Assembly: GCA_024275315.1 (NCBI GenBank) | Contig: JAJRZK010000003.1 | Coordinates: 62,001 to 126,000, forward strand | DNA: 64,000 nt | Direction of reading: 5' to 3' | Source of the DNA: Nitrospirota bacterium | GTDB taxonomy: Bacteria; Nitrospinota_A; UBA7883 | Part shown: positions 13,010-22,570 of the stretch, piece after piece | Layout of the letters: the number at the start of each line of letters is the position of its first letter | Numbering within the stretch: position 1 is the stretch's first letter | Notes under the pieces: model-generated | What the model was told of the DNA's origin: nothing | The model's input: the letters and a program-made list of their open reading frames with translations, nothing else | Database searches by the model: none | Translations under genes and position numbers: made by a program

Positions 13010-13086
13010 AAATTCAACTTTGCAACTAAACGACTCTTTTAATATGGCACAAATCAAGCACCATCCATTACCAGAAATAATTTGTT

Positions 13087-13104
13087 ACGTCAACATTTTG
13101 ACGT
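13087..13104. promoter_or_regulatory. Inverted repeat overlapping a -35 box (candidate operator)
   Basis: ACGTCAA-catt-TTGACGT is a perfect 7-bp inverted repeat. Its right end touches the -35 hexamer of the proposed rightward promoter and it also lies in the leader of the leftward fetAB genes, so a bound protein could affect both. Confidence 0.4.
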
Positions 13105-13132
13105 TGACAATATATGGTAATTAGCATACATT
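13104..13132 (+). promoter_or_regulatory. Probable promoter of the DnaJ-HEAT operon
   Basis: TTGACA (13104-13109, perfect -35), 17 bp and TACATT (13127-13132, four of six). The DnaJ-like gene starts 52 bp downstream. A further AT-rich repeat (ATTAAT...ATTAAT) lies between the promoter and the gene. Confidence 0.5.
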
Positions 13133-13184
13133 TGCATGTAATTTGATTAATATTTCATGGTATTAATCTGATATTTAACTAAAC

Positions 13185-14099
13185 ATGTCATACAATAACT
13201 GTAAATTTACCACTACTTTAAAGCAGGCGTACAAACTGCTCGATGTGGCGCCAGACGCTGATTTCAACCAGATCAAACGTTCATACCGTCGAGCCGCGCG
13301 CCTTTATCATCCTGACATAAATCCTGACATGTCAAGCAATGAAAAGTTTTGCAAGGTTGTGGCGGCGTATAACCTGGTACTGAAAAACCGTAAATGGTTG
13401 AACGATCCAGATTCTTCCAGGCCTTCCGGTCTCGCCAGCCCAAAACCGGGGATTACATGGCTCCCTTTCTGCGGTATGCTCAAGCGCTCCAGGGAACGCC
13501 TGCTGACCCTTATATATGGCGGGAAAAACAGCGACAAAAACAGCGCAAGCTCCTGCGGCGAAAAATCAAGCCCCACAAATGGCGATAGCCGCAGTAAATC
13601 CGAACTTTATAAGCTGATCTACCAGTTTGACAAAGCCGATGAAAGCACAGAAAAAATCAAGATGGCCCACGCCATTTACGCAAGATTCAGGGAAAATTTC
13701 GAGTGGGTCGCTATTTCCCGCCTTCCCCGTGTAGACACCAGGACACAGGTGGAGCTGATCTGGATGCTCGGACAGCTTGGCACAAAACGAGCCCTGGAAG
13801 TAATCGGTCCCTATGTAAAATCGCGCAACAAACGGATTGTGGGCGTGGCGTTTCTGGCGCTTGATCGAGCCGGCCCCACGGGCCAGGCGATATTGGATAA
13901 ATCATTGAGCACATCAGCCACTCTGGGGCGCAGGGTAATGGAAGTTTTCTATCACAGCCCCCTTGACAAGCGCATGCTGAAAAGCCGCATAGTGTCGTCC
14001 GCCCAGCTACGCAGGCTCAAAGCGGTAATGCGTAGCACCGGCCTGCCATTTGATGATGTTCTAAAGCTTGTCGGAATCTCCATCCCCCGATCCGCATGA
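13185..14099 (+). CDS. DnaJ domain protein with HEAT-like repeats
   Basis: A 304-residue protein. Residues about 14-65 form a J domain with the essential HPD in LYHPDINPD, so it can probably stimulate a DnaK ATPase. A low-complexity Ser/Lys linker (about 105-140) leads to a helical region with HEAT-repeat character (RTQVELIWMLGQLGTKRALE, then NKRIVGVAFLALDRAG), suited to binding a protein partner. It lacks the Gly/Phe and zinc domains of true DnaJ. It overlaps the ParB-like gene by 4 bp (ATGA), so the two are translationally coupled. The function is unknown: either a co-chaperone dedicated to the ParB-like protein or a scaffold. Confidence 0.85.
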   Translation: MSYNNCKFTTTLKQAYKLLDVAPDADFNQIKRSYRRAARLYHPDINPDMSSNEKFCKVVAAYNLVLKNRKWLNDPDSSRPSGLASPKPGITWLPFCGMLKRSRERLLTLIYGGKNSDKNSASSCGEKSSPTNGDSRSKSELYKLIYQFDKADESTEKIKMAHAIYARFRENFEWVAISRLPRVDTRTQVELIWMLGQLGTKRALEVIGPYVKSRNKRIVGVAFLALDRAGPTGQAILDKSLSTSATLGRRVMEVFYHSPLDKRMLKSRIVSSAQLRRLKAVMRSTGLPFDDVLKLVGISIPRSA

Positions 14100-15085
14100 G
14101 CCCAAAAGGCCCGGCCCCATCCTCTGTTGTCCGGGAATTCATAAAAGACATCGTTGTTGATAACCGGTTCTGTTTTTCCTTTCCCGCCGAAACTTCGGCT
14201 CTTAACAAATCTGTAGCTTCGTTTGGCGTAATAAACCCGGTATGGATTGTAAAGTCGCAGGATAACCGCAAAACGATTGTCAGTGGATTTCGCAGGTATA
14301 ACGCCGCCAGAAAAGCCGGGCTGGAAACAATCCCGGCGCTTACATTCAAAGCCGGGCGCGAGTATGATCTTTTCATAGCCCACGTCGCCGAAAATACGGC
14401 TGTCCGCAAGCTCAATGTCGGCGAAATATCCCGGGTAATCTTTTGCGCCAATGAACATTTCGGTCATGGTTTTGAAAAGATATCGGATCGCTTGTTCGAC
14501 GCGCTTGGGCTCGAGCGCTCGAGGAAAATATATGACATGCTCCTCGCCGTGGCCGGTTACGGGCCTGCGGCGAAAGATATCGTCAGCGCAGGGATGAGCC
14601 TTAAAGCGGCTTACAGGCTGGCGAGGTTTGAACCGGACCAGCGCGAAACGCTTTGCAAGTGGATTATGGATAACAGGTATGGGACCAGCAAATCCTCGTT
14701 AATGATCGATATGATAGACGATATCCAGGCTGTCAAAAAAAAATCCGTGGATGAAATAATAGCCGACGCCGAGGCGCATGTCTCACCTGATATGGAAAAA
14801 CCTCAGCGCAGTTCCAGGCTGTTTGAGTCTGTAGCGACCATGCGCAATCCCATTTTGGCCCGGATGCGCCGTGACTTTCAAACGGCTTTAGAGTCGTTGA
14901 ACCTGCCCCCGTCTGTCGAGGTTATACCGCCAAATAATTTTGAAGGCCGCCATATCGAATTCGTCATCAGGGCCAGGGATCGTTCCTCGGCCATCTCGTC
15001 GTTCAAAGCCCTGTCAAAGGTCGCAGAAGCGGAATCGGAAAACACGGAATCTTCAAAACTCTCCGGGCTTTTCGGATGGATATAG
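14096..15085 (+). CDS. ParB/sulfiredoxin-fold protein, non-canonical
   Basis: A 329-residue protein whose first 130 residues fit the ParB N-terminal domain. GFRRYNAAR occupies the place of the GxRR CTP-binding motif and AENTAVRKLN that of the ENxxR motif, so CTP or nucleotide binding is possible. A central helical region (about 135-190) may correspond to the helix-turn-helix part, and the C-terminus is unlike ParB dimer domains. There is no parA beside it and no parS-type 16-bp palindrome noticed nearby. The start overlaps the stop of the DnaJ-HEAT gene. It is more likely a member of the diverse ParB-like family with a special role than the chromosomal ParB. Confidence 0.8.
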   Translation: MSPKGPAPSSVVREFIKDIVVDNRFCFSFPAETSALNKSVASFGVINPVWIVKSQDNRKTIVSGFRRYNAARKAGLETIPALTFKAGREYDLFIAHVAENTAVRKLNVGEISRVIFCANEHFGHGFEKISDRLFDALGLERSRKIYDMLLAVAGYGPAAKDIVSAGMSLKAAYRLARFEPDQRETLCKWIMDNRYGTSKSSLMIDMIDDIQAVKKKSVDEIIADAEAHVSPDMEKPQRSSRLFESVATMRNPILARMRRDFQTALESLNLPPSVEVIPPNNFEGRHIEFVIRARDRSSAISSFKALSKVAEAESENTESSKLSGLFGWI

Positions 15086-15152
15086 CTGTTCCTGCATGAT
15101 AAGCCGCTTCGGACATGTGGCGGTCTGTCCCGATTTTCGCTAGAGTATATCC

Positions 15153-16232
15153 ATGTCATTCCCTGGTTTTTCTAAAATTCTGATAGCCGAAGAAGCAGTT
15201 TCAACGCCGCTGACGAAAAAGGCGAAGGCCGCCTGGCCGGACATCGCACCGCAGATCGTCCGGAACCTGGCCGATCATGAGCTACAGCTGGATATGGAGC
15301 CGGACCCGGTCGCCGCGGGCAAGCGGACGCTGGCGCTGGGTCCGAACCGGGGAAAGTTTATCCGGAAATGTCCCGGCACGATGGGGCTTGTCTGTTGCAA
15401 CTATTGGGTGATAGATCTTGTCGAGGGATGCCCGATAGATTGTTCCTACTGTATCTTGCAAGGATATCTTACCGACAGGCGAATCAGGCTGGCCACCAAC
15501 ATCAACGACCTTGTGGACGAAATCGACGCAGAGCTGGCCGGAGGAACACAACCTGTTCGGGTGGGTACAGGCGAGCTGTCAGACTCGCTGATACTCGACC
15601 CGCAATTGGGATTGGCCGAGACGCTGATCGACATTTTCAGGACCCGTCCCCGGGCCACGCTGGAGCTTAAAACAAAAACAGCGAACATAGACAGCTTGCT
15701 AAATCTTGAGCCGGCGGACAACATAGTGATCGGATGGTCGGTCAACACCCCGGCCATCATATCCAGCGACGAACGGGGCGCATCGAATCTTCACGACCGG
15801 CTCGCCGCCGCCAGACAGATTGTTAAGCATGGCTGGAAAGTAGCCTTTCATTTTGATCCCCTTGTACTGCATGACCGTTGGGAGGAGGGGTATCGCCGCG
15901 TTGTCGATGATATTTTCAGCGTGGCTCCGCCGGAAAAGGTGGCATGGATAAGCCTGGGAGCTTTTCGTTTTCACCCGTCTCTCAAACAGGTTATAAGGGA
16001 CAGATTTCCCATGTCGGATATCCTTAATTCAGAATTCGTCCTGTGTCCCGACAACAAGATGCGATATGTAAAACCCGAACGGCTGAAACTTTTCCGGACC
16101 CTCAAAAACGCCATAGTCGCCAAAGCTCCATCCACACCACTTTACCTTTGCATGGAGGGAATCGAAATCTGGGAATCGGTTTTCGGGGGATCGCCACGCG
16201 GCGATAAAAACTTATGCCAGGTGTTTGGATGA
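15153..16232 (+). CDS. SPL-family radical SAM protein (spore photoproduct lyase-like)
   Basis: A 359-residue protein whose middle matches the spore photoproduct lyase family: the cluster motif is CPIDCSYC (C93, C97, C100) followed by ILQGYL, the family's marker. A preceding Cys pair (CC, about 81-82) is also present. Family members repair a thymine dimer in spores, but this organism shows no spore genes here. The position that in Bacillus SPL carries the hydrogen-donor Cys141 appears to be non-Cys (GELSDS region, about 140-145), by my unaided alignment. The function is thus probably a related radical reaction on DNA or another target. It lies 67 bp after the ParB-like gene and overlaps glnE by 4 bp. 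Confidence 0.82.
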   Translation: MSFPGFSKILIAEEAVSTPLTKKAKAAWPDIAPQIVRNLADHELQLDMEPDPVAAGKRTLALGPNRGKFIRKCPGTMGLVCCNYWVIDLVEGCPIDCSYCILQGYLTDRRIRLATNINDLVDEIDAELAGGTQPVRVGTGELSDSLILDPQLGLAETLIDIFRTRPRATLELKTKTANIDSLLNLEPADNIVIGWSVNTPAIISSDERGASNLHDRLAAARQIVKHGWKVAFHFDPLVLHDRWEEGYRRVVDDIFSVAPPEKVAWISLGAFRFHPSLKQVIRDRFPMSDILNSEFVLCPDNKMRYVKPERLKLFRTLKNAIVAKAPSTPLYLCMEGIEIWESVFGGSPRGDKNLCQVFG

Positions 16233-19153
16233 ATCCGAAAGATATAGCCGGCAAAACTTTCAACCCGAAAGTTGCCCTGCAAGGTATCGATCGGCTCCTT
16301 TCCATCAGGCCGGAAATGGCAAACGACACCGACGCCTTGACGTTGTTGTCCTTTCTTTTCGCCGGTAGCGAATTCCTGACTGATTGGCTGATCGCCAGGC
16401 CGGCGCAAATCGATTGGCTCCTTGGTGATAACCGGCTGTCCGCAAAACGTGACACGGAAACCATGGCGTCAGATTTGGCGGAGCTGATGGCGGCCAACGA
16501 GCCGGCAAAAGCGTTGCGCCTGTTCAAGCACAGGGAGCTGTGCCGCATTTGCATACGGGAGCTTGGCGCGATGGCTCCGTTGCAGGAAACCATGAGCGAA
16601 TGGTCCCATGTGGCGGATACGGCGATTGACGCGGCGATAAAAATGGCGGAACTGGAGGCGACAAGGAAATACGGCAAGCCTGTCTATACCGGGCTTACCG
16701 ATCATGAGGAAAAAGTGGGAGGATTTGCGGCTATTGCGATGGGCAAGCTTGGGGGGGGCGAGCTTAACATCTCCTCCGATGTCGACCTGATTTACGTTCA
16801 CTCGTCCGATAACGGGACAACCACCGGACCGGAACAAATCCCGATTCATGAGTTTTTCGTCAGAATCGCGCGGGATGTGACATCGATGTTAAGCGAAGTT
16901 ACCGAAGACGGTTTTGTGTTTCGCGTGGATTTGGACCTTCGCCCGGAGGGCAAGGCCGGAGAAATAACAAACTCCATCGGAGCCATGGAAATATATTATG
17001 AGTCGTGGGGCCGTCAATGGGAGCGACAGGCGCTGATAAAAGCCCGGCATTGCGGTGGCGACCCCGCCGTAAGCGAAGAAACCCTCGACAGGCTGGTCCC
17101 ATTCGTGTATCGCAAGTACCTCGATGATGGCGCTCTAGCTGAAATCGCGGGAATAAAAGAAAAAATAGATCAGTCCCTTAAGGCAAAGAAAGGACCGGAA
17201 AAGGCCGGACGTGACATCAAGCTCGGGAGGGGAGGCATACGGGAGATAGAATTTATCGCCCAGTCGCTCCAGCTTTTATACGGCGCCCATTACACAGACA
17301 TGCGAAACAGGCAGACTCTTGGCGCGCTTAGTGTCTGCGAATCGCTGGGATTCCTCTCGGAACCGCACCACCGTGACCTGAAGGAGCATTACATTTTTTT
17401 TCGCCGCCTGGAAAACCGTGTGCAGTATTTCAGAAACCAGCAGACTCATCTGGTCCCCGATGACGCGGAAAGGCTCGATACGCTGGGGCAATCCATGGGT
17501 ATCGACTTGGACAATCCGGGGGCGCGCCTGGCCGAGGAAATTGACAAACGCCGCAAACGGGTTCGGGAAATATTCGACATGTTTTTCGTAAACGAAAGCA
17601 GGGACAACGCCGATTCGTTTCCTGTGTCCTTAGAGGACGAGCAAGCCACAGCCGCATGGCTGGACTCCCTCAGGTTCGACCATCCCCAAACATCAGCCCG
17701 CGCCCTTAACCTGCTTCGAAACGGCGCTTCCTATTCGCACCCGTCAGAAAAAAGCCGAATGACCTTTGACCGGTTCGGCCCGAGTCTTGTGTCGGAAGCG
17801 GCCTCCACATCATGGCCGGACCATGTGATTCTGGGATTTTCAAACTTTGTGGAGACAAGAAGCGGCAGGGACATGCTGTATGAACTGCTCGACAGGAACA
17901 GGCCGGTGATAAAACTGCTGGCGGCTATTTTTTCATCTTCGGAGTCCCTGTCGGCGGTGTTGCTCCGCCAGCCTGATCTGCTGGATCGGCTGTTGGTAAG
18001 CGACCCGGTGGGCGCCCCGGGGCGCCGGGGAGTGTATGCCCGTGAGTTTGGCTACGCGATCTCCTCCGGCTCCTCGACAGAAGAAATACTCGCCGCGGTA
18101 AACTCGATTCGCTCTGGCGAAAGCCTGAGGCTGGGACTGCGCCGGATACTGGGAATGGGGGACAGGTTCGAATTGATGTCGAGCCTGACCGTTCTTGCCG
18201 AGGAATATGTGCGGGCGATAAGCCGCATCGCGATGAACGAACTTCACACCGAGTTCAAGGGTGATATCCCTGATGTCAGGTGGACACTCATAGCCGCGGG
18301 CAAGCTTGGAAGAAGAGAAATGAATTTCGGATCGGACATGGACCTTCTGGCCTTTTACGAGGGACCAAACAAGACTGATCATGCCATCTCATCGCGCGAC
18401 TACGTCACCCGCGTCGTCCAGTCCATAATCAGGTTGTCTGGCGCCATGACAAAATATGGAAGCGGATACCAGGTGGATATGCGTCTTCGTCCGGAAGGAG
18501 AGGCGGGAACCCTCGTCTCGTCGCTGGATTCGATGGTAGAGTATTATAAAACCCGCGGGCAGGCGTGGGAGATGCTCGCCCTAATGGGCGCCAGGCCCAT
18601 CGGCGGCGACAAGGATTTCGGCGAAACAGTGATGAGGCGCATCAACGACTTTATATCTTCACGTACGATTTCAAAGCAGGACGCCGAAAAAATCGGCCAA
18701 ATCCGGGAGAAAATAGCCAGGCAAAGAATAAAGCCGGATTCCATCGACATCAAGTTCGGGCGGGGGGGACTGATAGAAATCGAATTTATATGCCAGTGGC
18801 TCTCCATGGAGAACGGAGTGTTAAGCTATGCAAGCAAACCATTTACCATATCCGCTATCAAAACGGCGGAAAAAGAAGGGTGGCTCGACACGGACGATAT
18901 ATCCGAGCTTGAAAAAGCGTATAAACTTTACCGGTCCATCGAGGACACGTTGAGAATGGATCGTGAGCAGGCGGTGAATATCCTGCCCAAAAACGACAGG
19001 ACGCTGTTGCGCCGGGTGTCAAAAGTTGTGGACATACAGGTGACGCCAGACGCGCTGGTCGGGTTGGTGAAAAACACGATGAAAACCATCAGGGCCATTT
19101 ATCTTGACTTTATAAAAGCCAGAACCGGGGACAGACATGACACAAGCGTCTAA
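16229..19153 (+). CDS. glnE: Bifunctional glutamine synthetase adenylyltransferase/adenylyl-removing enzyme
   Basis: Controls glutamine synthetase by adding AMP to and removing it from GlnA according to PII state. At about 974 residues it is full length. Both nucleotidyltransferase halves are present: the deadenylylation half with GKLGGGELNISSDVDLIY (about residues 178-195) and the adenylylation half with GKLGRREMNFGSDMDLLA in the C-terminal half, each followed by the DLRPEG or MRLRPEGEAG strand. The start ATG 16229 overlaps the SPL-like stop as ATGA and has AGGTG upstream; an ATG at 16214 has no ribosome-binding site. A run of eight G at 16751-16758 lies in the first catalytic motif without breaking the frame. 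No glnA or glnB is in the window. Confidence 0.95.
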   Translation: MNPKDIAGKTFNPKVALQGIDRLLSIRPEMANDTDALTLLSFLFAGSEFLTDWLIARPAQIDWLLGDNRLSAKRDTETMASDLAELMAANEPAKALRLFKHRELCRICIRELGAMAPLQETMSEWSHVADTAIDAAIKMAELEATRKYGKPVYTGLTDHEEKVGGFAAIAMGKLGGGELNISSDVDLIYVHSSDNGTTTGPEQIPIHEFFVRIARDVTSMLSEVTEDGFVFRVDLDLRPEGKAGEITNSIGAMEIYYESWGRQWERQALIKARHCGGDPAVSEETLDRLVPFVYRKYLDDGALAEIAGIKEKIDQSLKAKKGPEKAGRDIKLGRGGIREIEFIAQSLQLLYGAHYTDMRNRQTLGALSVCESLGFLSEPHHRDLKEHYIFFRRLENRVQYFRNQQTHLVPDDAERLDTLGQSMGIDLDNPGARLAEEIDKRRKRVREIFDMFFVNESRDNADSFPVSLEDEQATAAWLDSLRFDHPQTSARALNLLRNGASYSHPSEKSRMTFDRFGPSLVSEAASTSWPDHVILGFSNFVETRSGRDMLYELLDRNRPVIKLLAAIFSSSESLSAVLLRQPDLLDRLLVSDPVGAPGRRGVYAREFGYAISSGSSTEEILAAVNSIRSGESLRLGLRRILGMGDRFELMSSLTVLAEEYVRAISRIAMNELHTEFKGDIPDVRWTLIAAGKLGRREMNFGSDMDLLAFYEGPNKTDHAISSRDYVTRVVQSIIRLSGAMTKYGSGYQVDMRLRPEGEAGTLVSSLDSMVEYYKTRGQAWEMLALMGARPIGGDKDFGETVMRRINDFISSRTISKQDAEKIGQIREKIARQRIKPDSIDIKFGRGGLIEIEFICQWLSMENGVLSYASKPFTISAIKTAEKEGWLDTDDISELEKAYKLYRSIEDTLRMDREQAVNILPKNDRTLLRRVSKVVDIQVTPDALVGLVKNTMKTIRAIYLDFIKARTGDRHDTSV

Positions 19154-19156
19154 CCG

Positions 19157-20263
19157 ATGAGCGGGGAAACAGCCGCCAGAGTGGCGCTTAACACGGTCCC
19201 GTTTTTAACGGCCGACGTGTTTCACAGACTGATGATCTCTTTCGGCTCCGCCAGGGAGTCGCTCCGCGCCAGCGCCGGGGACCTCGCCTCCGTCGAAGGT
19301 GTCTCCGGAACCATGGCCAAACAGATAAAATCCATGGACCACCAGAAAATCGCCCAAAAAGAATTCGAATTTGCAACAAACGCAGGCGCCAGAATCGTAA
19401 CCCTTGGCGAAGAAGGCTACCCAGCCCCGCTCGCCAACGTATACGCCCCCCCACCTGTGTTGTCTATCCAGGGCCAGTGGAGGACACAGGACGAAATTTC
19501 GATAGCCATCGTGGGAACCAGGGCCGCTACAACCTATGGAAAACTAATGACCGAAAAGCTGACAAACGATCTGGTGTCGGCTGGTTTTACCATCGTGTCC
19601 GGCCTTGCCCGGGGTATCGATGGCGCGGCCCACAGATCCGCCCTCAACGCCGGTGGCCGCACTCTTGCGGTGCTGGGATGCGGTTTGAACATATATTATC
19701 CACCTGAACACAGGGAACTGCAAAAAAAGATTCCGGGCCGGGGGGCTATCATAAGCCAGTTCTCCTTTGCGGCGGGCCCAGGCAAAACCCTGTTCCCGCA
19801 ACGCAACAGGGTTATCAGCGGACTGACTATGGGCACGCTGGTCATAGAAGCGCCGGACAAGAGCGGGGCGCTGATCACCGCTTACTCGGCCCTGGAGGAC
19901 AACAGGGAGGTGTTTGCCGTTCCAGGCCCGATAAGCTCCAAAAAAAGTGAGGGAACCAATAAATTGATCAAAAAAGGCCACGCCAAACTGGTTCAGACCG
20001 TAGAAGATATTATCGAGGAGATGCCCGATCATGTCGCAGACTCGATCAGGACCAGGCAGGCCAGCCTCCCCATAGAGGAGCGTGTGGAACTGTCGGAAGA
20101 GGAAAACCTGCTTGTCAATATTCTCGATCATGAAACAAAACATATCGACACGATCGCTACAGACGTTGGTTTGCCATTGAATAAAGTATCTGCTATACTC
20201 CTTTCCCTTGAATTAAAAGGTCTTGTAAAACAGATCGCCGGGAAGATGTTTGTTCGCATATGA
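19157..20263 (+). CDS. dprA: DNA-processing protein DprA
   Basis: A 368-residue protein that protects incoming single-stranded DNA and loads RecA in natural transformation. The Rossmann-like core is clear from AIVGTRAATTYG, VSGLARGIDGAAH and LFPQRNRVISGL, and the C-terminus has the winged-helix DprA domain (about 300-368). The N-terminus has the helix-hairpin-helix-like segment ASVEGVSGTMAKQI. It starts 3 bp after glnE and is followed by topA after 21 bp; dprA-topA-trmFO is a common order in many bacteria. Together with the ComF fragment at the window's end it hints at, but does not prove, competence. Confidence 0.95.
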   Translation: MSGETAARVALNTVPFLTADVFHRLMISFGSARESLRASAGDLASVEGVSGTMAKQIKSMDHQKIAQKEFEFATNAGARIVTLGEEGYPAPLANVYAPPPVLSIQGQWRTQDEISIAIVGTRAATTYGKLMTEKLTNDLVSAGFTIVSGLARGIDGAAHRSALNAGGRTLAVLGCGLNIYYPPEHRELQKKIPGRGAIISQFSFAAGPGKTLFPQRNRVISGLTMGTLVIEAPDKSGALITAYSALEDNREVFAVPGPISSKKSEGTNKLIKKGHAKLVQTVEDIIEEMPDHVADSIRTRQASLPIEERVELSEEENLLVNILDHETKHIDTIATDVGLPLNKVSAILLSLELKGLVKQIAGKMFVRI

Positions 20264-20284
20264 ACTGGGAATAATTTGGTTTTT

Positions 20285-22570
20285 ATGGATAAAGCTCTGG
20301 TAGTCGTGGAATCCCCCGCAAAAGCTACGACGTTGAACCGTTATCTGGGGAAAAATTACACCGTCATGGCCTCGGTGGGGCATATAAAGAACCTGCCGAA
20401 ATCGAAGCTCGGTGTGGATATCGACAACGAATACAAGCCTGAGTTTGTCACCATCAGAGGCAAAAGCAAGATTATTAAAGAGCTTAAAGCCGCGGCTAAA
20501 AAGGTGGACACCATATATCTGGCCCCCGATCCGGACCGTGAAGGCGAGGCTATCGCCGCCCATATCGCAGACGAGATAGGCAAGGGCAAAAAGGTCTACC
20601 GCGTGCAGTTTAACGAAATCACCAAAAAGGCGGTTTTGGAAGCTATGAAAAACAGGGGCGAAGTCGATCAGAACCGTGTTAACGCCCAGATGGCGCGCAG
20701 GATTGTCGACCGACTCATGGGATACAAGCTTTCACCGTTGCTATGGGAAAAGGTCCGCAAAGGGCTGTCCGCCGGCAGGGTACAATCTGTGGCGCTGATG
20801 CTTGTGGTGGAGCGGGAAAAAGAGATCAAGGCTTTTAAGCCTGTGGAATACTGGTCCATTATCGCCCAGGTAGAGGGCAAGAGTCCTCCGCCGTTTGAAG
20901 CGAAAATATTGCACCACCTGGGGAAAAAAGTTGAAATCGGCTCTGAAGAGCAGGCGAAGCTAATAGCCGAAATAGTTGAAAAATCAGACCTTGCCATAAC
21001 AAGGCTTGAGAAAAAGGAGCGCAAACGCAATCCTTCACCGCCTTTTATAACATCGACGCTACAGCAGGAGGCCAGCCGCAAGCTCCGGTATTCCGCCAAA
21101 CGCACAATGATGCTGGCGCAGAAACTGTATGAGGGAATGGACGTTGGCGAAGGTGATCCGGTGGGTCTGATAACATACATGAGAACAGATTCCACCAGAA
21201 TTTCAGAAGACGCCGTTTCCGAAGTGCGGGACTTTATCACCAAAGATTACGGAAACAGCTACCTTCCCACCAAACCGCTAACCTATAAAACCAAAAAATC
21301 CGCGCAGGACGCGCATGAGGCCATACGGCCCACCTCGGCGCTGAGAACTCCCGCCTCCATAAAAAGCAAGCTGTCGAAGGATGAATACAACCTTTACGAG
21401 CTTATCTGGAAGCGTTTCGTGTCGTGCCAGATGACCCAGGCTGTTATGGATGTGACCACGGTGGACATAAAAGCCGGGGATTACAACCTGCGCGCTTCGG
21501 GATCGATATTGAAATTCGACGGGTTCCAGCGGGTTTATGAGGAGTCTCAAGACCAGCCGTCCAGTGAGAAGCAAAGCGACACTGACCGGCGACTGCCCCC
21601 GGACCTTGCCAAGGGCGATCTGGTAAAGCTGTTAAAACTCGATAAAAAACAGCATTTTACCCAACCTCCCCCACGGTTTACAGAGGCGATGCTGATAAGG
21701 GAGCTGGAGGAAAAAGGGATCGGCAGGCCGTCTACATACGCCGGAATCATGGATACAATCCAGGAGCGGGAATATTGCCAGGCTGTGGAGCGAAGGCTCA
21801 CCCCTTCAGAGCTTGGAATTCTCGTCACCGAGTTGCTGGTGGAAAACTTTCCTGACATCCTCAATGTGGAATTCACCGCCCAGATGGAAAAGGAGCTGGA
21901 TCAGGTGGAGGAGGGGTCCAAAGCGTGGACCGCGGCCCTGGACGATTTTTACAAGCCCTTTGCGGCCGACCTGGAAAAAGCCAAGACCAACATGCGAAAC
22001 GTCAAGGCCGAAGCGGAAAAGACAGATATCGTATGCGAAAAATGCGGCAAAGCGATGGTCATCAAATTTGGACGGTTTGGCAAGTTTCTGGCCTGCTCGG
22101 GCTATCCGGAATGCAAGTTTACCATGAAGCTCGCGAAGGATGGAACAGTGGCTCCGAAAGTCGAGGCTCCGCCGGATGAGCCGACAGATTTAAAATGCCC
22201 TACCTGCGGCGAACCGATGGTGATAAAGACCGGCAGGTTCGGCCGGTATATCGCTTGCGTCAAGTATCCCGAGTGCAAAACCACAAAGCAGATAGGGATC
22301 GGCATAATGTGCCCAAGAGATGGTTGCAAAGGCGAATTGACAAAAAAACGGAGCAGAAGGGGTATAACCTTTTATGGATGTGATCAGTATCCCAATTGTG
22401 ATTTCACCTTGTGGGGTGAGCCGGTGAATGAACCATGTCCCGACTGCGGCAACAAGCTTCTTGTAAAAAAATCGCTCAAGTCCGGCATGTTCTTGCAGTG
22501 TCCCGTGAAAGAGTGCGCGTTTAAAAAAGAAATTGTCGAAACCACCGAAACCCCCAAATCCGGAGGGTAG
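20285..22570 (+). CDS. topA: DNA topoisomerase I
   Basis: Relaxes negative supercoils. The 761-residue protein has the Toprim domain at the N-terminus (ALVVVESPAKATTLNRYLG), the DPDREGEAIA acidic motif, and the catalytic tyrosine in LITYMRTDSTRIS. The C-terminus carries four zinc-ribbon units beginning near CEKCGKAMVIKFGRFG, CPTCGEPMVIKTGRFG, CPRDGCKGELTK and CPDCGNKLLVKK, which bind single-stranded DNA. ATG 20285 is chosen over a TTG 9 bp upstream because family members start MxKALVVVESPAK. It is co-directional with and 2 bp from the proposed start of trmFO. Confidence 0.97.
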   Translation: MDKALVVVESPAKATTLNRYLGKNYTVMASVGHIKNLPKSKLGVDIDNEYKPEFVTIRGKSKIIKELKAAAKKVDTIYLAPDPDREGEAIAAHIADEIGKGKKVYRVQFNEITKKAVLEAMKNRGEVDQNRVNAQMARRIVDRLMGYKLSPLLWEKVRKGLSAGRVQSVALMLVVEREKEIKAFKPVEYWSIIAQVEGKSPPPFEAKILHHLGKKVEIGSEEQAKLIAEIVEKSDLAITRLEKKERKRNPSPPFITSTLQQEASRKLRYSAKRTMMLAQKLYEGMDVGEGDPVGLITYMRTDSTRISEDAVSEVRDFITKDYGNSYLPTKPLTYKTKKSAQDAHEAIRPTSALRTPASIKSKLSKDEYNLYELIWKRFVSCQMTQAVMDVTTVDIKAGDYNLRASGSILKFDGFQRVYEESQDQPSSEKQSDTDRRLPPDLAKGDLVKLLKLDKKQHFTQPPPRFTEAMLIRELEEKGIGRPSTYAGIMDTIQEREYCQAVERRLTPSELGILVTELLVENFPDILNVEFTAQMEKELDQVEEGSKAWTAALDDFYKPFAADLEKAKTNMRNVKAEAEKTDIVCEKCGKAMVIKFGRFGKFLACSGYPECKFTMKLAKDGTVAPKVEAPPDEPTDLKCPTCGEPMVIKTGRFGRYIACVKYPECKTTKQIGIGIMCPRDGCKGELTKKRSRRGITFYGCDQYPNCDFTLWGEPVNEPCPDCGNKLLVKKSLKSGMFLQCPVKECAFKKEIVETTETPKSGG

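Follow-up and report, generated by a model that had tools for sequence, protein, structure and literature searches.

In this study, we find that the genes of a ParB-like protein and of a radical SAM enzyme with the fold of spore photoproduct lyase (SPL) form a pair that is kept together far beyond the genome in which it was noticed. The pair is best read as a two-protein unit of DNA repair or DNA modification that is apparently undescribed, and a search of the open-licence PMC literature found no paper on a ParB-like/SPL-like pair. That the two genes encode one two-protein enzyme acting on DNA is a proposition for which we consider the chances evenly balanced. SPL, the best-known DNA-repair enzyme based on radical chemistry, is associated with spores and UV. 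The altered enzyme of the SPL fold described here has a ParB-derived protein as partner in over half of the genomes sampled from one phylum, and its hosts are mostly uncultured bacteria; it occurs in a genome in which no SASP gene was found, and its relatives often come from dark habitats according to their source records.

The window, a stretch of 64,000 nucleotides from a Nitrospirota bacterium (contig JAJRZK010000003.1), contains the three open reading frames that an earlier, sequence-only reading had singled out (Table 1), and the first two overlap by the four bases ATGA (14096-14099), as that reading had stated. Divergent genes for an ABC transporter and a UPF0014 protein lie upstream of the J-domain gene, and glnE (16214-19153), dprA (19157-20263) and topA (20276-22570) follow the trio. 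The claim that no ParA accompanies the ParB-like gene was borne out among the genes examined around the locus, namely these five and the annotated neighbours. A separate ParB of canonical type is encoded elsewhere in the same genome (G000:C38).

Table 1. Features of the locus, with positions counted from the first letter of the window.
Feature	Position	Strand	Basis or remark
Inverted repeat (7-bp arms) overlapped by a sigma-70-like promoter (predicted) for the J-domain gene	13087..13132	+	
J-domain protein whose C-terminal part is helical and probably HEAT-like; neighbour outside the conserved unit	13185..14099	+	Pfam, order-wide comparison
ParB-like protein (329 aa) paired with the radical enzyme	14096..15085	+	ParB_N, profile, model
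ParB N-terminal (CTPase-fold) domain, residues 9-104 (S39, G44, G64, R66, R67, E99, N100, R104)	14120..14407	+	7bm8
Noc/ParB-like DNA-binding domain (predicted), residues 91-215	14366..14740	+	Noc DNA-binding domain with DNA, 6y93
Constant C-terminal part, residues ~165-329, with invariant P252 and E283	14588..15082	+	Sole part remaining in truncated lineages
SPL-like radical SAM enzyme, 359 aa	15153..16232	+	SPL PF20903, model
C73, invariant extra cysteine	15369..15371	+	HMMER aligns it with the engineered cysteine S76C of the SPL structure 4rh0
C81-C82, C82 invariant	15393..15398	+	Family alignment
Radical SAM motif C93xxxC97xxC100	15429..15452	+	Invariant in 34/34
E141, invariant in 34/34, occupying the position of the catalytic cysteine in SPL (B. 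subtilis C141, G. thermodenitrificans C140)	15573..15575	+	
C333 in YLCME, an extra cysteine close to the C-terminus, invariant	16149..16151	+	Family alignment

Relatives were gathered by scanning genome contigs with an alignment of the enzyme; the same scan with a single ParB-like sequence as query gave no match. The first sampled phylum (that of genome G024, suggested to be Desulfobacterota) comprised 128 genomes, of which 74 carry the enzyme, 72 the ParB-like gene, 69 both and 51 neither (Fisher p 4.5e-26, with kinship ignored). All but one of the eight exceptions were resolved on inspection. Four of the five enzyme-only genomes (G101, G118, G144 and G154) have a ParB-like gene reduced to its C-terminal part directly upstream of the enzyme gene, and the fifth, G075, is the remaining case and carries a different SPL-like subfamily in which the CC and GTGE signatures are absent; among the three ParB-only genomes, the enzyme runs off the contig in G165, and the ParB-like gene stops at a contig edge in G077 and G148. 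Moreover, in a second phylum, to which G025 belongs and from which 80 genomes were sampled, the ParB-like gene was found in 12 of 13 enzyme-bearing and in 0 of 67 enzyme-free genomes, and the exception, G200, is also without the CC/GTGE signatures. Within the window's order, both genes occur in the same 7 of 12 genomes. Three small or incomplete drafts (G012, G033 and G035) have the enzyme without a ParB-like match of this family. The association of the two genes exceeds chance; that of the J-domain gene with them does so only within one family. The pairwise distances of the two proteins are also correlated (r 0.92, 37 loci), as plain vertical inheritance would likewise produce. Named isolates with the pair include Desulfatibacillum alkenivorans (L094) and Desulfosarcina cetonica (L118); no phenotype of the pair in a cultured strain was found.

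Adjacency of the two genes likewise extends far outside the window's genome. They are neighbours in 47 of the 69 first-phylum genomes that have both, with the ParB-like gene upstream on the same strand in 45, and lie within 400 bp of each other at 41 of 80 named loci; in 19 of 21 genomes chosen because their pair is not adjacent, the ParB-like gene is located elsewhere in the genome. The surrounding genes (GT2, PurC, ExbB/D, glnE) change between loci, and therefore the pair itself is what is kept: a gene catalogue around the 80 loci contained no constant third partner and no constant pathway neighbour. At L098, both proteins are encoded in one open frame, which begins at a contig edge in a draft genome that also has a separate full-length ParB-like gene. 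Other long fusions (open frames of up to 805 aa, at L180) yielded no convincing second Pfam domain and were set aside as probable wrong starts or overlapping frames. A defence system was rejected, the sole PADLOC signal being a weak match, of ParB_N type, to a model of a methyltransferase (E 0.00092), and so was a phage-borne system, as viral contigs held no relative of the enzyme and the two phage matches are distant (24% identity). Ten distant matches were found on plasmids.

The sequence-only reading had joined the J-domain gene to the pair as a functional trio. The duo was upheld, whereas the J-domain gene joins it only within the window's family, where it is directly upstream of the ParB-like gene in five of six pair-bearing genomes; the ATGA overlap is found in G000, G009 and G010, and both observations favour one module of J-domain protein, ParB-like clamp and radical enzyme. 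In the order as a whole, however, the J-domain gene is present in 9 of 12 genomes, occurs without the ParB-like gene or the enzyme in G001, G003, G005 and G007, is unlinked to the pair in G004, and encodes a protein shrunk to a 106-aa J domain in G006. In G003, G005 and G007, it is divergent to UPF0014 or ABC/UPF0014 genes. Furthermore, the J model was found among the 80 named loci only at L056 and L058, both of the window's family, and downstream at L132, and there are lineages that bear the pair without a J-domain gene. The three-gene module was thus rejected: outside the window's family the J-domain gene lies beside an unrelated transporter pair, and it is also present without the duo; we regard such a module as very improbable, and the best explanation of the J-domain gene is that of an incidental, lineage-specific operon neighbour. 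Given the four genomes of the order that have it without the duo and the one (G004) in which it stands apart, the suggested role of its product as a DnaK recruiter finds no comparative support. Pfam detects the J domain of this protein (E 2.6e-13). The HEAT repeats also claimed for it fall below the Pfam cut-off (HEAT_2, E 0.053, 14.3 vs 27.7 bits), as they do in an orthologue (E 4.5e-5, 24.1 bits), and therefore we describe the C-terminal part as helical and probably HEAT-like. The palindrome noted at the promoter exists (13087-13104, 7-bp arms and a 4-nt spacer) and is overlapped by a sigma-70-like -35 box at 13104; when the same 127 bp were subjected to 2000 mononucleotide shuffles, arms as good or better arose in 290. 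In other genomes of the order, the J-domain gene is preceded by a related TTTTGACRTTGACA...TAATTAGCATAC block, and the site is therefore credible as a promoter of that gene, not as an operator of the trio.

The ParB-like protein does possess a ParB/CTPase fold, according to profile, Foldseek and structural comparisons. Pfam detects a ParB_N domain (E 8.1e-10), the family profile A6 matches Spo0J of the PDB (E 1e-25), and the best Foldseek match of the structure model (pLDDT 93.5) is M. xanthus ParB with CTP-gamma-S (E 2.1e-9). In the model, the N-terminal domain superimposes on 7bm8 over 95 residues (Z 11.4, rmsd 1.7). Kinases of the ParB/Srx fold match the same domain (5x0b and 5ujd, Z 7.4), and at 15 of the 80 loci the pair or the enzyme gene is immediately preceded by a gene for a GT2 glycosyltransferase, which would suit the making or tailoring of a metabolite by a small-molecule kinase-like enzyme (compare free serine kinase and SbnI) together with a radical SAM enzyme. 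We consider this quite improbable: ParB is the closer match by both Z score and profile, the domain is missing in truncated lineages, and no pathway gene is a constant neighbour. The middle domain resembles the DNA-binding domain of Noc in 6y93 (Z 7.5, rmsd 3.0, 114 residues), a moderate Z that may reflect a common helical arrangement, and HTH_ParB was detected in 5 of 42 family members. For the C-terminal part, Pfam gives no convincing name, which is no proof of a new fold; the structural comparison covers residues 1-252 of the model.

The nucleotide motifs were compared with C. crescentus ParB, for which the residue roles are taken from PMC8367383. The GxRR motif of the sequence-only reading is present (G64-F-R-R67), whereas the supposed ENxxR motif reads ENxxxR (E99 N100 ... 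R104) and is one residue longer. Among 37 full-length members, the cytosine motif (S74 and G79 of C. crescentus ParB) is retained as S39 (35/37) and G44 (37/37), and the phosphate-motif residues R104, R103 and N136 have counterparts in R67 (37/37), R66 (R in 23, K in 12) and N100 (33/37). The position of E102, required for CTP hydrolysis in ParB, is aromatic in 36 of the 37 (F65 in the window's protein), the counterpart of R139 is off by one residue, and R60 and Q58 are not conserved. In addition, some lineages have lost the nucleotide domain together with most of the DNA-binding domain and retain the C-terminal domain beside the enzyme. Because it survives there, the C-terminal domain is the constant partner, and the partner in those lineages is therefore no ParB-type clamp. 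A nucleotide-gated clamp, as earlier proposed, is thus possible but weakened by these changes. It is unlikely, in our estimate, that a CTP-loaded ParB-derived clamp, locked by loss of the hydrolysis glutamate, moves the SPL-fold enzyme along the chromosome so that a base can be repaired or rewritten; that same estimate covers the further supposition that such a CTP-switched radical DNA machine is widespread in anaerobes, with a C-terminal docking domain able to outlive the clamp.

The radical enzyme matches the SPL family PF20903 (E 2.1e-25), and its structure model (pLDDT 90.5) aligns with SPL 4rh0 over 323 residues (Z 35.1, rmsd 2.3), the next radical SAM enzymes reaching Z ~14. Its score against TIGR04070, the NCBI model of SPL, is 101.2 bits vs a cut-off of 400 bits. 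The hydrogen-donor cysteine of SPL (C141 in B. subtilis, C140 in G. thermodenitrificans) is missing, with E141 in its place, and the tyrosine Y99 of B. subtilis, which has a relay role in that SPL (PMC5368176), is replaced by I101, or by I, V or F across the family. Judged from sequence, these two replacements make classical spore-photoproduct repair an unlikely reaction for the enzyme. Which cysteine aligns with the donor position is ambiguous, MAFFT placing C82 there and HMMER C73. UV or spore repair was rejected as the main role: UV repair is an unlikely purpose of the pair because the genome has no detected SASP gene and the source records place many relatives in vents, sediment or groundwater. 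A dark repair of spore-photoproduct-like thymine lesions, with C73 or C82 as clostridial-type donor and the ParB-like protein as lesion-delivery factor, would account for the full SPL fold. Clostridial SPL uses C74, a cysteine on the opposite side of its pocket, to repair the spore photoproduct (PMC5368176), and 4rh0, with whose S76C residue C73 aligns, is a C140A/S76C mutant. Against this reading, E141 is invariant in the pocket, the relay tyrosine is lost, the TIGR04070 score is far under its cut-off, and little spore photoproduct is expected because no SASP gene was found in the window's genome. We therefore consider it improbable.

An SPL fold alone reveals no substrate, and relatives of SPL may act on molecules other than DNA. 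The pair might modify tRNA or rRNA, with a ParB-derived RNA-binding adaptor and an SPL-fold base-modifying enzyme, and the model of the enzyme does align with RlmN (Z 12.5-13.4), as do many radical SAM enzymes; the changing neighbours without a pathway tie are compatible with a housekeeping modification, and the fact that some lineages have lost most of the DNA-binding domain is compatible with a role away from DNA. We nonetheless judge RNA an unlikely target, since the sole full-length structural match is a DNA-repair enzyme and the middle domain is like those with which Noc and ParB bind DNA. A DNA-modifying radical enzyme is plausible from the predicted SPL fold. In the mechanism that we prefer, the ParB-derived protein would be the DNA-binding and targeting subunit and would dock on the radical enzyme through its C-terminal domain; its N-terminal domain may bind CTP, and the usual hydrolysis would not be expected. 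The enzyme would generate a 5'-deoxyadenosyl radical, by which a base or lesion of the DNA would lose a hydrogen in an SPL-type pocket. Because E141 and I/V/F replace the donor cysteine and relay tyrosine, any return of hydrogen would rely on C73, C81 or C82 in the N-terminal part, as it does on C74 in clostridial SPL. The pair points to an unrecognised lesion or modification of DNA (or RNA) and suggests a new role for the ParB fold. The conserved residues (E141, C73, C82 and C333; P252 and E283; the aromatic F65) and the natural truncations provide direct handles for mutational and domain studies.

Compared with SPL/SplB (PF20903, TIGR04070), the enzyme shares the fold over 323 residues, the CxxxCxxC motif, Y99 (Y97 in B. 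subtilis) and, as K175, a lysine of the TK motif that has a role in SPL. It differs in E141 and I101, in the extra invariant cysteines C73, C82 and C333, in reaching 101 of 400 bits, in its SASP-less genome and in a near-obligate ParB-like partner. An SPL-like protein of Fusobacterium (L176), presumably the nearest proxy of the clostridial type, has retained the tyrosine that follows the third cysteine and is without the GTGE motif, unlike the window's enzyme. With the clostridial-type SPL of C. acetobutylicum, likened here by description, the enzyme may share an N-terminal donor cysteine on the other pocket side (PMC5368176). The ParB-like protein resembles ParB/Spo0J and Noc in its ParB_N fold, the C-motif S39/G44, R67, E99, N100 and the Noc-like DNA-binding domain. 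However, no ParA partner gene, the mark of chromosomal ParABS, was seen among its annotated neighbours, the E102 position is aromatic, R139 is shifted by one, the C-terminal domain is its own, its partner is a radical enzyme, and some lineages have lost the N-terminal domain. SplB-like radical SAM enzymes linked to ImuB-C, SRAP, DUF4130 or uracil-DNA glycosylase (PMC3765255) also combine such an enzyme with a dedicated partner and are proposed to act in DNA repair or mutagenesis; their partners are different, and ParB is unmentioned in the sections available of that paper. DndB and other ParB-superfamily proteins (PMC10853773) belong, in the available part of that account, to systems of phosphorothioate chemistry with no SPL-like radical SAM enzyme, and share with the present pair a ParB-superfamily protein beside a DNA-modifying enzyme.

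The ParB-like protein and the SPL-like radical SAM enzyme (SPL, spore photoproduct lyase) constitute a nearly inseparable unit of two proteins, and this comparative claim is the strongest of our report. The sequence-only reading had joined the two to a J-domain protein as a candidate DNA-linked module, and the three open reading frames, including the ATGA overlap of the J and ParB-like frames, are indeed present in this part of the 2.9-Mb genome (G000). An ABC ATPase/UPF0014 gene pair lies divergently upstream of the J gene, the start of glnE overlaps the enzyme frame by 19 bases, and two genes that we, like the sequence-only reading, take from their sequences to be dprA and topA follow further downstream.

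Features of the locus (L numbers denote loci in other genomes)
Feature	Position in window	Remark
Conserved promoter-like block (TTGACA, TAATTAG...)	13085-13145	also precedes the J genes at L044, L046, L048, L052, L054, L055
J-domain protein ORF	13185-14099	upstream gene of the three
ParB-like protein ORF	14096-15085	ATGA overlap with the J gene
SPL-like radical SAM enzyme ORF	15153-16232	3' of the ParB-like gene

Of 12 genomes of the order, seven (G000, G004, G006 and G008-G011) encode the ParB-like protein, and it is these seven that also encode the enzyme. The ParB-like protein of G004 is remote (20% identity), yet its gene lies directly upstream of the enzyme, and glnE does not adjoin; in G008 the pair is split over two contigs, one of which ends at the ParB-like gene. 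Of 24 genomes of the phylum, 8 have the enzyme and 7 the pair. In G012 (76% complete) the enzyme is present as fragments at contig edges, and the family ParB-like search found no match there. A GTDB genome search with the enzyme alignment supplied 80 named loci, a biased set in that these are the 80 top matches among 565 or more, which we scanned with a ParB-like model built from family members. A ParB-like gene lies on the same strand within 400 bp upstream of the enzyme in 41 loci and within 2.5 kb in 4 more; one locus is fused, 4 are at a contig edge, and 30 have no ParB-like gene in the visible stretch. We searched 26 genomes for the protein, 21 of them chosen for a non-adjacent pair; it was encoded elsewhere in 19 of these 21 (split in G044, partial in G036) and was not found in G033 and G035.

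Two unbiased samples were drawn from other phyla. In the first, 128 genomes from the phylum to which L094 belongs (completeness 90 requested; cut-offs E<=1e-40 for the enzyme and E<=1e-30 for the ParB-like protein), 74 had the enzyme, 72 the ParB-like protein, 69 both and 51 neither (Fisher p 4.5e-26, ignoring kinship between genomes). In the enzyme-only genomes G101, G118, G144 and G154, a ParB-like gene directly upstream matches in its C-terminal part only, in G101 and G154 inside a longer open frame; other exceptions are an enzyme truncated by a contig end (G165), ParB-like genes at contig ends (G077, G148) and an enzyme without family signatures (G075). In the second, 80 genomes from the phylum that includes L128, 13 had the enzyme and 12 of these the ParB-like protein (weakest in G207, E 3.4e-25), the exception (G200) having an enzyme without the CC and GTGE signatures; none of the 67 enzyme-free genomes had the family ParB-like protein, matches ending within the ParB N-terminal/DNA-binding part. 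Two SPL-like enzymes without these signatures (L198:2288-3298 and L199:2587-3597), in genomes lacking the ParB-like partner, apparently represent separate subfamilies.

The pair was adjacent in 47 of the 69 genomes of the first sample (in 45 the ParB-like gene comes first in the same orientation, in 2 it lies downstream), on one contig far apart in 5 and on different contigs in 17; match coordinates indicate adjacency in 7 of 12 in the second. Of the proposed trio, a duo of these two genes is supported, and the membership of the J gene is not. The J-domain/HEAT-like protein was found in 9 of the 12 genomes of the order, four of which lack the pair. It is absent from G011, and in G006 it is a 106-aa J domain (L044:2303-2623) missing the helical C-terminal part. 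Because the J gene and its promoter-like block (TTGACA and TAATTAGCATAC) occur also in genomes without the pair, and because in G003, G005 and G007 the J gene runs divergently from UPF0014 or ABC/UPF0014 genes, it seems to belong to the transporter locus, next to which the pair was placed in one family.

Neighbours of the 80 loci, named from one scanned representative per cluster, vary by lineage and include no constant third gene. At 15 loci in several phyla (e.g., L065:4549-5433, L069:722-1555), a GT2 glycosyltransferase gene, all from one cluster, lies directly upstream of the pair or, in L071 and L074, of the enzyme alone. A PurC cluster is near the pair at 7 loci and a nucleoside-phosphorylase-superfamily cluster at 14 (including L068:4214-4921); Acidobacteria/Aminicenantes loci have an ExbD neighbour and an ExbB-like gene, the latter named by eye. 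A Fusobacterium SPL-like protein (L176:2107-3978) has a weakly nucleosidase-like N-terminal extension, and such a neighbour or extension might clear 5'-deoxyadenosine. ParB-like and enzyme distances correlate over 37 adjacent loci (r 0.92; 0 of 2000 permutations as high), which also fits plain co-inheritance. In L098:1-1362, the ParB-like C-terminal domain and the enzyme share one open frame of 453 aa, which runs off the start of the contig and may be a natural fusion; this draft genome also carries a separate full-length ParB-like gene.

The predicted structure of the ParB-like protein (AlphaFold2, pLDDT 93.5) supports the proposed kinship with the ParB/CTPase fold: modelled residues 9-104 match the N-domain of ParB in complex with a CTP analogue (Z 11.4, rmsd 1.7 over 95), and for residues 91-215 the match is the DNA-binding domain of Noc (Z 7.5). 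We mapped by eye, in alignments of 37 members longer than 285 aa, the residues that C. crescentus ParB requires (PMC8367383). S74 is kept in 35, G79 and R104 in 37, N136 in 33 and E135 in 30 (D in 4); R103 is R in 23 and K in 12, R60 is not conserved, and the R139 counterpart sits one position off. The E102 position, likewise read by eye, holds F, W or Y in 36 and E in none, and the E102A mutant is described there as binding CTP without hydrolysing it and as clamp-locked (PMC8367383). CTP binding is therefore plausible from sequence, and ordinary CTP hydrolysis is not. Short forms of 168-205 aa (the Binatia-type L059, L064, L065, L067 and L075, and G084, G118, G144 and G168) have no N-domain and retain little of the DNA-binding domain. 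The C-terminal part, in which P252 and E283 are invariant (42/42), is the constant partner of the enzyme.

For the enzyme model (AlphaFold2, pLDDT 90.5), SPL is the sole full-length structural match. C93, C97 and C100 are invariant in 34 enzymes, as are C73, C82, E141 and C333. E141 occupies the position of B. subtilis SPL C141. In SPL this cysteine returns the hydrogen and Y99/Y97 relay the radical (PMC5368176). Judged from alignments, which place the donor position at C73 (HMMER) or C82 (MAFFT), one of these two may take over its part. No SASP gene was found in G000 by a search that recovered the B. subtilis control.

We read the pair as acting on DNA from the enzyme's SPL fold and from its partner's descent from ParB; its chemistry we infer, and action on RNA is the main rival. 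We found no paper describing the pair in the open-licence PMC literature. A 2013 comparative-genomics study links SplB-like enzymes to partners other than the ParB-like one reported here (PMC3765255).
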